A stretch of 64,000 bases of DNA from Gemmatimonadota bacterium (GTDB taxonomy: Bacteria > Gemmatimonadota > Gemmatimonadetes > Gemmatimonadales > Gemmatimonadaceae). The stretch's first letter is position 1. Each line of letters starts with the position of its first letter. A program made the position numbers and the translations under genes. Under the pieces are notes generated by a model, which was not told the origin of the DNA, did not search any database, and worked only from the letters and a program-made list of their open reading frames with translations. Below, one piece after another: positions 23,562-30,263 of the stretch. The DNA lies in assembly GCA_028287305.1 (NCBI GenBank), contig JAQBPX010000011.1, positions 186,001-250,000 on the forward strand, written 5' to 3'.

Positions 23562-24926
23562 CTAAGGAATGGGCCGTGGCCGGGGCCACGGCCACGGCCA
23601 CGGATTCATGGCCTCGCTCCCCGCGAGCCCGCGCACGGCTGCTTCGCGCACCCTCGGGTCTGCGTTCGTGAGCAGTTCCGACAGCGTCTCCTCATTGCGC
23701 CCTCCCGAGCGAATGAGCGCGCGAATGAGGGCTCGCCGAACCTGGGCGCTCTTCTCGTCGTGCAGCGCCGTCTTGATGCGGCCGAGCGCCGACGAGTCGC
23801 CCACCTGGCCGAGTGCCCACGCCGCCTTGAGGCGAACGTCGTCGCTGTCATCGGTGAGCGCGCGCACGAGCCCTTCCGGGGCGCGACTGCCATCGCCTCG
23901 CAGCTGCCCGATCGCCCACGCGGCGGTGCCGCGAACGCGCGACGACTTGTCGCTGCCGATGATCCGCCCCAGCGGCTCCACTGCCGCGCGGTCATTCGAC
24001 TCGGCCAGCGCCCACACGCTCGTCTCGCGCACCGCGTCGTCTGCGTCATGCTGCGCGACGTTGATGAGCGTGGCCGACGCGACCTTCGACTCGAGGTTGC
24101 CGAGCGCCCACGCGGTCATCTCGCGGACGCGAGCGTCGCTGTCGCGCGCGAGCACCGTGGCGAGTGCCTCGGCGGCCGAGCGTGCCTCCATCTCGCCGAG
24201 CGCCCATGCGGCGGCGCGGCGCACGGAGGGCGCGTCGTCGTTCTGCAGTACGCGAATGAGTGCGCCGGTGGTACTGCTCGAGTCGAGGCGGCCCACGGCC
24301 AGCACGCTGACTTCGCGCACCTTCACGTCGGAGTCGCGAAAGAGCGCCACGAGCGGTGTGAGTGCACGCCCGTCCTCGATGCGCCCGAGTGCCCAGGCGG
24401 AGTTCGCGCGCACGCTGGAGGCGGCGTCGTGCAGCGCATTGACCAGTGGGTCAACAGCCGACCTCGGCTGGGTGAGCCCGAGGCCGAACGCGGCGATCTC
24501 GCGCACCTGCGCGTCCTTCGACGCGAGCCGTTCCATGAGCGGCGCCGCGACGGTGGCGGACTTCTGCCCGCCGATCAGTCGGATGGAAAGCTCGCGGACG
24601 CAGGCGTCGTCACTTGCGAGCCCATCGAACAGCTTCGCGACGTCGGCGTCGCTGTACTGTGCGTCCTCCAGCGCGCGACGATGCGCGACCTGCTGCGACG
24701 CGAGCGGCGTGTAGGGCGCCTCGTTCCAGTCGCCCCAGCCGTTGCCGCGCACCGCCTGGCCGGCGAGCGCACAGATCACTGGCGGCGCGCCGTGCGCCGC
24801 GGTGAGCAATGCCGACACGTCGAGCGGCGCGACCGGCGCTGCTTCCACTGCATGCTCGTGCCGGGCGCGCGCGCCGCCGAACGACACCGCGACCGCCGCG
24901 ACCACCACACCGAATACGCGAATCAT
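23562..24926 (-). CDS. Exported HEAT-repeat protein
   Basis: A 454-aa protein. The ATG at 24926 begins a signal-like stretch (MIRVFGVVVAAVAVSFGGA). From about residue 105 to the end there are around ten HEAT units of about 31 residues, each with a D..VR..A.WALG core (for example VRANSAWALGRIEDG, VREMTAWALGNLESK). It ends in NPWPWPWPRPRPIP, nearly the same tail as the BlaR1-like protein encoded 107 bases upstream. Its HEAT units closely resemble those on that sensor, so one may have arisen from the other. Likely a periplasmic protein-interaction partner of the sensor; third gene of the operon. Confidence 0.8.
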   Translation of the reverse strand: MIRVFGVVVAAVAVSFGGARARHEHAVEAAPVAPLDVSALLTAAHGAPPVICALAGQAVRGNGWGDWNEAPYTPLASQQVAHRRALEDAQYSDADVAKLFDGLASDDACVRELSIRLIGGQKSATVAAPLMERLASKDAQVREIAAFGLGLTQPRSAVDPLVNALHDAASSVRANSAWALGRIEDGRALTPLVALFRDSDVKVREVSVLAVGRLDSSSTTGALIRVLQNDDAPSVRRAAAWALGEMEARSAAEALATVLARDSDARVREMTAWALGNLESKVASATLINVAQHDADDAVRETSVWALAESNDRAAVEPLGRIIGSDKSSRVRGTAAWAIGQLRGDGSRAPEGLVRALTDDSDDVRLKAAWALGQVGDSSALGRIKTALHDEKSAQVRRALIRALIRSGGRNEETLSELLTNADPRVREAAVRGLAGSEAMNPWPWPWPRPRPIP

Positions 24927-25033
24927 CTTCGATACTCCTCTCGAGTTGCCCACGGGATCACCGACAGGCGAAGGTTGAAAAATCAGCACCAAGGGGCAAA
25001 AGAATGGGCGCACCCCTGCGCCCAGTCCCTCGC

Positions 25034-27112
25034 CTACGGAAAGGGTCGCGGCTCCGGCCAGGGCCAGGGCCACGGTCCAGTCGCATGACCGCCCGCCAGC
25101 GCGCGCACCGCCATCGACTTGATGGCCGGGTCGTTCGAGTCGAGCAGTCCCTTGATCGCGTCCACCGACTTCTCCCCGAGCGCGGCGAGCGCGCGAATGT
25201 AGGAGAGCTGCAGGTCCCTGTCCTGCTCGCGCTTCAGCGCCGCCTCGAGGGCCGGCACTGCGCTCGCATCTTCCACGGTGTAGAGCACCCACGCGGCCAG
25301 CCGGCGAAGCCGCGGATCCTTGTCCTCGAGCATCGCGATCACCTGCTTCGGCGCCTGCTTCGGCTCCACGCTGCCGATCGCCCACGTGGCGCGCATGCGC
25401 ACCTCCGGACTCGGGTCGTCGAGTGCGCCGACGAGGGCGTCGACCCCCGCGCGATCGCCGATGCTGCCGAGCGCCCATGCGGAGAGCGCGCGCACGCGAA
25501 TGTTCGCGTCGCCCTTGAGCGCGAATGCGAGCGCATCGAGCGCGGCCGGCGACTCGTCGCCGCTCCCGAGCGCCCATGCCGCCATCTCACGAACGCGATC
25601 ATCCGCATCCTTGCGCAGCGCGGTCGCAAGCGCCTCGGCGGCCACGGGCGCGTCGGCGTACTCCTCGAGTCCCCACGCGGCGATGCGACGCAGCGTCGCG
25701 CTCGTGTCGGTGCGGAGGATCTTCGCGAGCAGGACCGGCCGGTCGTCCTTCGCGCCCTTGCCGCCCTTGGGCCCCTTGTCGCCCTTGTCGCCGTTCAACA
25801 GGTCGTCGATCACCTTCTGCAGGCGCGGGTTCTCGGCAACCTTCTCGGAGATGCGCTCGTTGGTGTACTCCTGCGAGTGCAGCTGGACCTGCGTGTTCAC
25901 CTTCACCTGGGCCTTCGACTCGAAGTCGGTCGACAGGGGCGCGTCGAGCGAGGGCGACGTGGGGCGCGGCTCGGCCTTCGGCTTCGGCGCTGGCGATGCC
26001 TCCGGCAGCTGTGCGACGGGTGCAGACTCGTTCACCGACGCCGCACTTGCGACGCGCGGCGCGGGCGCAGCGGCGCCGACCACGAGCGCGATGCACGCGA
26101 GCGTCGCGATGAGCGCCGCAGACTGGCGACGGCTCGGCGCCGTGCGCCGCAGTTCGGGATCCAGGATGGCGAGCATGCGTCCCTCGAATTCCTTGCGACG
26201 CGCCATGGCGAGCGCGACCAGCGGCGTTGCGTCGCGCCGAACCGAGGTCACGATGTCGAGCAGGTGCTCGGCGTAGTCCGCGGCACGCGTGCCGCACGAG
26301 AGTGCGAGGTCGTCGCAGGCACGCTCGCTCTCGTTGCGAAGCTGCCGGGCGGCGGTCCAGACGAGCGGATGGAACCAGTAGACGGCGCACGCAAGGCGGC
26401 CGAGCGTGTGGCCGACCAGGTCGCGGCGACGCACGTGCGCGAGCTCGTGCAGCAGCACCGCATGACGGCGATCGAGCGACCAGTTGTCGCACTCCGCGGG
26501 GAACACGATGGTCGGCGTGACCAGTCCGCACGCGAAGGGCATGCGCGCTTCCTCGCTGCGGAGGAGGCGCGGCGGCTCGTCGAGTCCGAGACGGTCGGAG
26601 ACCTCGAACAACGGCGCGGTCCAGTCGGCGGTGTCGAGTGGCGTGGCCTGTCGCACGAGGCGGCGAACGGTGAGTCCCGCCCATGCCAGCGTGAGGAGGA
26701 TCAGCGCGAGCACCGCGCCCCACGCGATCAGTGCGAGCTTCACGAGACCTGCACTGGCGACGACGCGCATCGCGCGCTGGAGCATGCCCGGCGCGGGAGC
26801 GGCTGGCGACTGCGACACAGCCGACTGCGACGCGACCGCAATGCCAACGTCGCTTGCGCTCGGCGAGCCGAGATCGGGCGATGTGCGGTGCACCTTCGGA
26901 ACGGCGGCTGCGGGTTGCGCTGCCGGCAGGATCCGGAGGGGGATCGGCGCCCATGCGGTAAGCGCGGGCACGAGCAGCAGCGTGACCAGCGTGACGAGCC
27001 ACACCAGGTGGCGGGCGCCGGCTGAGGTGCGCTGCATGGCCAGCGTGATGCCGAGTGCGGCGACGAGGATGATCGTCGCCTTGATGAGCAGGATGAGCAG
27101 CGAGGGGATCAT
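25034..27112 (-). CDS. BlaR1/MecR1-type M56 metalloprotease sensor fused to HEAT repeats
   Basis: A 692-aa membrane protein. The N-terminal part has helices at about 3-25, 38-60 and 124-146. The cytoplasmic M56 protease domain has HELAHVRRRD and the downstream RNESERACDDLAL segment. A last helix (AALIATLACIALVVGAAAPA) leads outside. The usual penicillin-binding sensor domain is replaced by a Pro/Lys-rich linker, a collagen-like GDKGDKGPKGGKG run and about seven HEAT repeats, ending GPWPWPWPEPRPFP. By family analogy, ligand binding outside triggers cleavage of the BlaI-like repressor; here the signal is unknown and may be a protein. The start overlaps the repressor stop (ATGA). Confidence 0.9.
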   Translation of the reverse strand: MIPSLLILLIKATIILVAALGITLAMQRTSAGARHLVWLVTLVTLLLVPALTAWAPIPLRILPAAQPAAAVPKVHRTSPDLGSPSASDVGIAVASQSAVSQSPAAPAPGMLQRAMRVVASAGLVKLALIAWGAVLALILLTLAWAGLTVRRLVRQATPLDTADWTAPLFEVSDRLGLDEPPRLLRSEEARMPFACGLVTPTIVFPAECDNWSLDRRHAVLLHELAHVRRRDLVGHTLGRLACAVYWFHPLVWTAARQLRNESERACDDLALSCGTRAADYAEHLLDIVTSVRRDATPLVALAMARRKEFEGRMLAILDPELRRTAPSRRQSAALIATLACIALVVGAAAPAPRVASAASVNESAPVAQLPEASPAPKPKAEPRPTSPSLDAPLSTDFESKAQVKVNTQVQLHSQEYTNERISEKVAENPRLQKVIDDLLNGDKGDKGPKGGKGAKDDRPVLLAKILRTDTSATLRRIAAWGLEEYADAPVAAEALATALRKDADDRVREMAAWALGSGDESPAALDALAFALKGDANIRVRALSAWALGSIGDRAGVDALVGALDDPSPEVRMRATWAIGSVEPKQAPKQVIAMLEDKDPRLRRLAAWVLYTVEDASAVPALEAALKREQDRDLQLSYIRALAALGEKSVDAIKGLLDSNDPAIKSMAVRALAGGHATGPWPWPWPEPRPFP

Positions 27113-27510
27113 CGGGCCTTTCCCTCTGCCTGGCGCGACTTGCGGATCGTCTCGCGGAGGCGGTTCACGTCGGCGTCGCTCATGTCCACGTCGGTCATGC
27201 GGAGGAGCGCGGTGACGGCCTGCTCGGGGGAGCCGGCGAAGTAGGTGCGGACCACGTGGGCGAGGACGTCGTCGCGGGCGGCGTCGGTTTCCTGCGAGGG
27301 GTAGTAGATGTAGCGGGGTCCGTCCTCGCGGTACTTCACGAGCTTCTTGTCGCCGAGGATGCGGAGGACCGAGCGGACCGCGGAGTACGTGGGAGGGTCG
27401 GGGAGCTCGGCCATGATCTCGGCCACGGTGCCGCCGCCGCAGCGATGGAGGATGTCCATGACCTGTCGTTCGCGTCGGGAGAGGGCGGGTGCGTCGGCTT
27501 GGTCGGTCAT
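27109..27510 (-). CDS. BlaI/MecI-family repressor
   Basis: A 133-aa winged-helix repressor: LSRRERQVMDILHRCGGGTVAEIMAELPDPPTYSAVRSVLRILGDKKLVKYREDGPRYIY is the classic BlaI core, followed by a C-terminal dimerisation helix pair. It is cleaved by its partner M56 protease in known systems. The ATG at 27510 is chosen because the domain starts there; a longer frame upstream crosses the operator. It is first in the operon repressor, M56-HEAT, HEAT. Confidence 0.88.
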   Translation of the reverse strand: MTDQADAPALSRRERQVMDILHRCGGGTVAEIMAELPDPPTYSAVRSVLRILGDKKLVKYREDGPRYIYYPSQETDAARDDVLAHVVRTYFAGSPEQAVTALLRMTDVDMSDADVNRLRETIRKSRQAEGKAR

Positions 27511-27529: not shown

Positions 27530-27563
27530 CTGTGCTGAAAAATCAACTGTGCTGATATTTCAA
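27530..27563 (-). promoter_or_regulatory. 17-bp tandem repeat, candidate BlaI-type operator
   Basis: Two abutting 17-bp copies, on the plus strand CTGTGCTGAAAAATCAA then CTGTGCTGATATTTCAA, 20 bases upstream of the repressor start in otherwise AT-poor DNA. A further mirror piece (CAACAG) follows. Placement and AT-richness suit promoter plus operator of the autorepressed operon. Confidence 0.5.
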
Positions 27564-27601
27564 CAGTGGGGCTCATTTGTCAAGTAAGGATCTTCGCGAC
27601 A

Positions 27602-28510: not shown

Positions 28511-29086
28511 ATGACCTCGCGTGTCGCTGTCCTGCTCGCTTCAATGGCGCTCGTTGCCTGTTCCCGCGGCGATGCGGACGCCCAGTCGCCCGCAGCCGCG
28601 CCTGCGTCCGCGCCCGCCGCGAAGTCATCCGGCCCGGTGCACGCCTATGCGAAGCCGAGCGACGACGAGCTGAAGAAGCGCCTCACGAAGCTCCAGTACG
28701 AGGTCACGCAGCACGAGTACACGGAGAGCCCGTTCCACAACGACTTCTGGGACAACCACGAAGCGGGGATCTACGTGGACGTCGTGAGTGGCGAGCCGCT
28801 GTTCAGCTCACTCGACAAGTTCGAGAGCGGCACGGGCTGGCCGAGCTTCACCAAGCCGCTCGAGAAGGCGAACGTCCGCGAGAAGACCGATACGCAACTC
28901 GGCTTCTCGCGCACGGAAGTCCGCTCGGTGCACGCGAACTCGCACCTGGGCCACGTCTTCGACGACGGCCCCAAGCCGCTCGGCCTCCGCTACTGCATGA
29001 ACTCGGCGGCCATGCGCTTCATCCCGGTAGCGAAGCTCGCGGCTGAGGGATATCCGGAGTACGTGAAGCTGTTCGCGAAGAAGTAG
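28511..29086 (+). CDS. msrB: Lipoprotein-type methionine sulfoxide reductase B
   Basis: A 191-aa protein with a lipoprotein signal ([17 protein letters not shown]) and an Ala/Pro-rich linker, then a full MsrB domain: [54 protein letters not shown] and the catalytic cysteine in [11 protein letters not shown]. It reduces the R form of methionine sulfoxide, here presumably in the periplasm. The zinc CxxC pairs are replaced (VDVVSGEP), as in the zinc-free subgroup, and the position often held by the resolving cysteine (SGCGWPSF) is Thr. Its 3' end overlaps the convergent sugar-nucleotide enzyme gene by 68 bases. Confidence 0.92.
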
Positions 29087-30263
29087 GCTCGTCGGGCGCA
29101 CCGGACTTCCAGTCCACCTCCGGCAGCAGCCTCGCCCCGCCGAGCCGCTCGCGGTGCTCCAGCAGGTCCTGCATCAGGTACCGCACGCCCTGCTCGAGCT
29201 CGATGGTCGGGATGCCGCTCTGCCGCAGCTTGAACGTGCGCGCGGGGCCAGCCTTGCACGGGCGCTCTGCCTCGTGGCGCGGGTCGAGGCCCGTCTCGAG
29301 TTGCACGTGCAGCCCCTGCTCCGCACCGATGCGCTGGATGAGCTGCGCGATCTCGAGCACGCTGATGCGCGTCTCGGTCGCCTGGTTCACCACCTTGTGC
29401 TCGCCCGGCGCGGCCGGCTCCTGCGTCCAGTGCACCAGCGCCGACACGGAATCGTAGAGCGAGATCAACCCCGTGGTCGCCTTGCCTCCCGCATGGACGG
29501 TGAGCGGCGCGCCACAGATCGCCTGCGCCACGAAGCGGTTGAGCACCGACCCGAACACTGGATCGCAGTCGAAGCGCGTCGCGAGCCGCGCGTCCTGCCG
29601 CCAGAGCGCGGTGCGGGTGCCGTACACGATGCTCTGCATCACGTCGGTGGCCGCGAGCCCCCACACGCGGCAGCCCATGGCGATGAAGTTCGAGTCGTTG
29701 ATCTTCGTGATGTGATAGACGTCGTCGGCGGCGCGCGGGAACGGCACGGGAACGCTCGTCGGGAGCCCGTCGAGCACTGCATCCACGTATCCCTCGCCGA
29801 GCGGCACGCCGCACGCCGCGTACTCGCCCATGCTCCCCATCTTCACGAGGTGCGTGTGCGGTGAATGCTCGCGCATGGCGAACAGCACCGCGACGTTGCC
29901 CAGCTCGTTGTTCGCGATGGTCTCCTTCGCGCGGTCCACGTCCATCATGGACCAGGGCGCCGACGGGATCTGCGCGAGGTTCACGATCACGCGCGGCTTG
30001 AGCGCGCGCACCAGGGGCTCGACGCAATCCTCGACGCCGGCCACCACGCCCGCGATGTCGCCCCGCCCGGTGGTTTTCCGCAGCAGCTCGATGCGGTCGT
30101 CGAAGCTCTCGATCGGGATCGCGCTGTCGGAGCCGCAGCAGGCCACGCGCTCGCGCTTCGACAGGTCGTCCACCGCGATGATCGGCTCGTCAACTTCCAG
30201 CGCCAGCCGACAGAGCAGCGACCAGCCGATGTAGCCATCGGCGCCGAGCACGAGGACGCTCAT
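29019..30263 (-). CDS. NAD-dependent epimerase/dehydratase, UDP-sulfoquinovose synthase-like
   Basis: A 414-aa extended short-chain dehydrogenase. The nucleotide motif is GADGYIG (7-13) and the catalytic pair is Y183-x3-K187 (YHITK). Stretches typical of SqdB/Sqd1 are present: [47 protein letters not shown] and [11 protein letters not shown]. SqdB makes UDP-sulfoquinovose from UDP-glucose and sulfite for sulfolipid. No SqdX/SqdD glycosyltransferase is in the window, so the true product could be another sulfo- or deoxy-sugar. The start overlaps the class V aminotransferase stop (ATGA). Confidence 0.75.

Follow-up and report, generated by a model that had tools for sequence, protein, structure and literature searches.

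What does a BlaR1-type receptor sense when the domain that binds beta-lactams has been replaced by HEAT repeats? The question is raised by a gene on the reverse strand (25034-27112) of a 64,000-nucleotide stretch of a Gemmatimonadota genome, hereafter the window, which codes for a 692-aa putative sensor (P0001). Its N-terminal half matches Peptidase_M56 (PF05569) at residues 11-315 (E=2.8e-35; 122 bits, above the curated cut-off of 31), and the zinc-binding/catalytic motif HELAH (residues 222-226; 26435-26449, reverse strand) belongs to a complete HEXXH...E signature, with H222, E223, H226 and E263 invariant in an alignment of 18 sequences (A1). Compared with solved structures, residues 1-350 match only Staphylococcus aureus BlaR1 (PDB 8exs and 8exp), weakly (E=0.004). 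In this alignment HELAH faces HEYAH (201-205) of BlaR1, and E263, D267 and D231 correspond to E242, D246 and D210; the sensor residues matched to BlaR1 catalytic residues, whose roles are taken from PMC9834060, are invariant across the 18 sequences. Four hydrophobic segments (5-23, 36-54, 126-144 and 331-349) are predicted to span the membrane, and the AlphaFold model has four long hydrophobic helices within residues 1-350. The preliminary description of this gene, made from the sequence alone, stated that the protease keeps HELAH and its helices, and the Pfam match, the invariant motif, the BlaR1 alignment and the hydrophobic segments bear this out. As the BlaR1 structure is Nout/Cout (PMC9834060), the four predicted segments and the homology of the protease half support an extracytoplasmic location for the C-terminal part, and by the same homology the protease would face the cytoplasm.

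Pfam detected neither a transpeptidase nor a beta-lactamase domain anywhere in the 692 residues, and the sensor scored 85 bits with the NCBIfam model blaR1_generic (cut-off 400) and 26 bits with the MecR1 model (cut-off 1200). Because the defining penicillin-binding domain is absent, the protein is, on sequence grounds, a member of the M56 peptidase family that nevertheless falls outside the BlaR1/MecR1 beta-lactam sensors. Its C-terminus contains four stretches of HEAT_2 (E=1e-37; 128.7 bits for a cut-off of 27.7), and residues 458-673 (25094-25741, reverse strand) are modelled by AlphaFold as a solenoid, for the most part at pLDDT of about 90-97; Foldseek matches it to designed alphaRep HEAT proteins with E-values down to 9.5e-09. 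Domain match and fold thus agree that this is a HEAT repeat protein. The replacement of the beta-lactam-binding domain by HEAT repeats, already proposed in the preliminary description together with structure prediction as a way to check it, is therefore confirmed. With the full sensor model, the best 50 Foldseek matches were solely helical-repeat folds, so that the relation to BlaR1 rests on sequence.

Protease and solenoid are joined by an unconserved linker (residues 350-457; 25742-26065, reverse strand), predicted to be disordered over about residues 347-457 (pLDDT mostly below 50). It is the least conserved part of the sensor, its aligned stretch ranging from 78 to 194 residues among 29 orthologues. 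The sole Gly-X-Y run of the protein, GDKGDKGPKGGKGAK (residues 441-455; 25748-25792, reverse strand), amounts to about four to five triplets; a comparable run occurs in one of the 28 other orthologues (L083), and two more, L080 and L093, reach three triplets apiece. No long conserved Gly-X-Y array was found in the sensor. A collagen-like ectodomain was consequently rejected, given the single short run and a linker that varies in sequence and length, and the collagen-like linker announced earlier reduces to about four triplets in a disordered stretch that is not conserved in the 29 orthologues.

The sensor gene is part of a trio conserved in the same order (blaI, M56-HEAT, secreted HEAT gene) in about 29 genomes. 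In the GTDB family of our organism the sensor occurs in about 29 of 148 genomes, with the HEAT gene adjoining in nearly all of them; the closest relatives with named database records are metagenome-assembled genomes of Gemmatimonadetes/Gemmatimonadaceae. The blaI-type repressor gene (27109-27510, reverse strand), whose stop codon is overlapped by the start codon of the sensor, codes for a product with a Penicillinase_R domain (PF03965; E=3.9e-23). Its reading frame opens at 27576 and its start is likely the MTDQ at 27510; this shorter version is to be preferred because the operators described below lie inside the longer frame, just upstream of MTDQ. The next gene downstream of the sensor, on the same strand (23562-24926), codes for a 454-aa HEAT-repeat protein (P0003) with a signal-peptide-like N-terminus and two cysteines, C52 and C109, invariant in a 16-row alignment (A2). 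Aligned with the sensor ectodomain over 234 columns, it is 43% identical, and we take it for a paralogue of that domain, C-terminal tail included. The trio, with the same tail and operator, extends to two other families of the order (G165, G178, G203, G346 and G347, some of these loci being incomplete). Remote M56-HEAT proteins that lack the tail also adjoin a small HEAT gene (G033, G041, G056 and, on contig C2, G015). G015 has in addition an orphan secreted HEAT gene (L094, 7281-8678) with the tail and without an adjoining M56 sensor, and no operator site was found in its 7.5 Mb genome; the secreted protein can therefore exist without the switch.

The tail, the secreted partner gene and the operators were all absent from the preliminary description. 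The tail follows the pattern PWPWPWPxPRPxP and is common to both HEAT proteins, reaching the stop codon or stopping about a residue short of it: PWPWPWPEPRPFP in the sensor (25037-25075, reverse strand) and PWPWPWPRPRPIP in the secreted protein (23565-23603, reverse strand), with GPWPWPWPEPRPFP and NPWPWPWPRPRPIP as examples of such alternating-proline endings. Its alternate prolines are invariant in both alignments (18 rows in A1, 16 in A2), and nearly all of the 29 sensor orthologues carry it. The centre of sensor tails often contains Glu, Asp or Gln, as in PWPWPWPEPRPFP, and some of these tails have a single Trp (WPQPRPRPRPYP). Within its own genome the PWPWPWP DNA pattern occurs at two HEAT genes only, those of the sensor and its secreted partner. 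Across the phylum, each examined HEAT reading frame with the pattern is a sensor or a secreted HEAT protein, the other matches being frames devoid of HEAT repeats; the idea that such tails are simply common in these genomes was rejected, all phylum-wide matches in HEAT frames lying in the module or in the orphan secreted copy. A remote M56-HEAT protein of G041 (L096, 6091-8922) ends in FPDPRPRPRPRPRPRPRPNGW, another alternating-proline tail.

The trio is marked by a candidate BlaI-type operator, the dyad TGNTGA-N4-TCANCA, a pattern first derived from the module loci themselves. In the window it occurs three times on the reverse strand, for 0 matches in 100 shuffles: O1 (TGTTGAAATATCAGCA, 27550-27565) and O2 (AGTTGATTTTTCAGCA, 27533-27548), 17 bp apart upstream of blaI, and O3 (TGCTGATTTTTCAACC, 24973-24988), immediately before the secreted HEAT gene. 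The operator was found upstream of blaI in 25 of the 25 loci with enough sequence, in tandem in 21 of them, and it precedes the secreted HEAT gene at each of 29 loci. Penicillinase_R match and tandem dyads upstream of blaI together give this sensor the repressor partner and operators typical of BlaR1/MecR1. The whole 4.37 Mb genome holds five sites at no more than one mismatch (a reversed-pattern control gave 0): O1 to O3 and a tandem pair, on contig C16, before one gene coding for a CBM9_1-DUF5916 protein. By comparison, 24 module-free genomes of the same family have about 1.2 sites each, and none of them has a tandem pair.

This distant candidate target (L112, 8535-11102) matches DUF5916 with 215.6 bits and CBM9_1 with 38.4 bits; PF06452 and PF19313 are both above cut-off in it, as in eight further such targets in relatives. 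We counted by hand 54 non-module operator loci across 27 module-bearing genomes, ours included, and nine of them precede CBM9-DUF5916 genes (in our genome, G012, G124, G029, G050 twice, G118, G013 and G110); a tenth operator-linked gene, in G054, is truncated. A binomial estimate for the nine links gives p of about 5e-10, a rough value under generous assumptions (4000 genes, two neighbours per site). Independently of the operator, DUF5916 genes adjoin the module in G021, G029, G030, G054, G104 and G165. The linked genes fall on different branches of the family tree without forming a single clade; a single orthologous target gene was rejected on this ground, and the link therefore recurs across paralogues. 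Many module-bearing genomes have neither an operator-marked nor an adjacent DUF5916 gene, so the link may be partial. A search of 5.39 million papers found none mentioning DUF5916. Its AlphaFold model, obtained from six sequences, has a mean pLDDT of 36; the signal peptide, the predicted strands and the conserved aromatic residues near the C-terminus suggest that DUF5916 may be an outer-membrane barrel.

The remaining operator sites of the relatives precede genes of other kinds, and some may be chance matches or belong to other BlaI paralogues. An operator-like dyad is found before four MacB/FtsX-type permease genes (L119 in G019, L131 and L133 in G013, L138 in G063) and directly before two genes for PF00144 serine hydrolases of the beta-lactamase superfamily (L115 in G040 and L128 in G118, one genome each); others precede an M16 peptidase gene, an amidohydrolase gene and further genes. 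Our genome also has a second operon, on contig C23 (L249, 2091-7676), in which blaI, M56 and CBM9-DUF5916 genes overlap. It shares BlaI, M56 and CBM9-DUF5916 with the proposed circuit, here united in one operon, but lacks a secreted HEAT partner, and its M56 protein (881 aa) has a different ectodomain, made of SDGDKR-type repeats without any Pfam match.

HEAT solenoids are protein-binding scaffolds, and with the C-terminal part probably outside the membrane the protease may, we propose, be under the control of a protein or envelope partner. In our preferred reading, to which we give a probability of about 0.68, BlaI and M56 make up a one-component proteolytic switch that commands the operator-marked genes, and the protein is its sensor, a HEAT solenoid having taken the place of the beta-lactam-binding domain. 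A flexible linker would hold the solenoid on the outer side of the inner membrane. In the resting state, BlaI bound to the TGNTGA-N4-TCANCA operators would repress blaI-M56-HEAT, the secreted HEAT gene and the distant CBM9-DUF5916 gene. Gain or loss of a protein or envelope partner by the ectodomain would activate the inner-membrane protease, which would inactivate BlaI, as in BlaR1, and so derepress the sensor, the secreted HEAT protein and DUF5916. The secreted protein, bearing the same Trp-Pro-Arg tail, might then compete for the partner of the sensor or join it, as feedback or as a co-receptor, whereas DUF5916 proteins would remodel the envelope. More tentatively, and at somewhat less than even odds, the whole may represent a new extracytoplasmic surveillance pathway of the order, in which M56-HEAT and BlaI control a soluble copy of the ectodomain and CBM9-DUF5916 proteins, the tail being a new periplasmic docking signal.

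Several other explanations deserve consideration. BlaI/M56 partners are classically linked to the cell wall, and one study (PMC3305447) reports that a peptidoglycan fragment participates in the induction of the BlaI system of Bacillus licheniformis; the sensor could thus follow beta-lactam or muropeptide stress indirectly, its ectodomain binding a PBP-like or muropeptide-binding partner. The two relatives whose operator loci precede PF00144 hydrolases would agree with this, but each of these links is confined to a single genome, the conserved targets are the HEAT and DUF5916 genes, and Pfam finds no PBP-like domain in the sensor, so that we regard such a role as improbable. The same observations bear on the earlier proposal that the input is not a beta-lactam. 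The absence of a PBP-like domain speaks for it, and so does a predicted regulon made up of secreted HEAT and CBM9-DUF5916 proteins, the latter presumably of the envelope, instead of a classical beta-lactamase; the two PF00144 loci among the 54 give a wall-related input some residual probability. The companion proposal, that a protein or envelope assembly may be sensed, fits the solenoid and this predicted regulon.

A closed loop without external ligand, in which the HEAT repeats are a scaffold, ectodomain and secreted protein oligomerise and the sensor gauges the amount of the latter, would account for the paralogy of the two proteins (43% identity over 234 columns), their common tail and the operator that precedes the secreted gene at each of 29 loci. 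By itself it does not account for the DUF5916 targets and it leaves the orphan gene of G015 unexplained; we consider it rather unlikely. The tail could also be read as an anchor interacting with membrane or LPS, through which both proteins report physical damage to the outer membrane. Membrane-active peptides rich in Trp, Pro and Arg have a similar composition, and alternating prolines with Trp and Arg at or beside the C-terminus would suit such a function; the central Glu, Asp or Gln of many sensor tails (PWPWPWPEPRPFP) and the tails with one Trp (WPQPRPRPRPYP) weaken a reading as lipid insertion, and we hold this to be a poor prospect. That tail and repeats are functionless compositional drift is very hard to believe, even if a GC-rich genome tends towards codons for Pro, Ala and Arg: both proteins retain the tail in different genera and families, in contrast to the unconserved linker nearby, and the pattern of the tail marks two genes only in our genome and, elsewhere, no HEAT protein outside the module.

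The proteolytic switch that we favour can be placed among known systems. With BlaR1/MecR1-BlaI/MecI of S. aureus and B. licheniformis (PDB 8exp-8ext; PMC9834060) it shares an M56 gluzincin with HEXXH...ExxxD, four transmembrane segments (here predicted), a C-terminal domain that is probably outside, an overlapping or adjacent BlaI-family repressor gene and dyad operators upstream of it. Unlike BlaR1/MecR1, the sensor has no SxxK penicillin-binding domain and bears instead a disordered linker, a HEAT solenoid and a Trp-Pro tail; its operator is TGNTGA-N4-TCANCA, and its predicted targets are the secreted HEAT and DUF5916 genes. The operator of the BlaR1/MecR1 systems is a TACA/TGTA dyad. By analogy, the proposed switch also resembles DegS/RseP sigma-E and RseA-type envelope stress sensing, where transcription is released by a protease of the inner membrane whose sensing domain, outside the cytoplasm, responds to proteins, but it has neither PDZ domain nor anti-sigma factor and is not of the same family; DegS and BlaR1 are treated side by side in PMC7593790. 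The ectodomain fold is that of HEAT_2/PBS-lyase-type HEAT proteins and designed alphaReps, which are soluble binders, none of them fused to M56 among the matches listed. Our literature search found no paper combining BlaR1 and HEAT repeats and none describing this circuit, and a BlaI/M56 circuit with a HEAT ectodomain suggests an undescribed kind of envelope sensing. The BlaR1 signalling chassis might then serve generally as an envelope receptor whose ectodomains can be exchanged, beyond antibiotic resistance. The circuit supplies a concrete operator and a predicted regulon, gives a first lead to the function of DUF5916 and, with its conserved Trp-Pro tail, a handle for the biochemical capture of partners. 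In Acidobacteria, Planctomycetes and other groups, M56 proteins (L161-L217) have many different C-terminal ectodomains, by eye TonB-C-like, ankyrin-like, TPR-like and coiled-coil, which gives the impression of an M56 chassis in wide reuse. Elsewhere in the window, the reading frame at 29019-30263 (reverse strand) codes for what we take to be an NAD(P)-dependent sugar-nucleotide epimerase-like protein resembling SqdB/SQD1 sulfolipid synthases.
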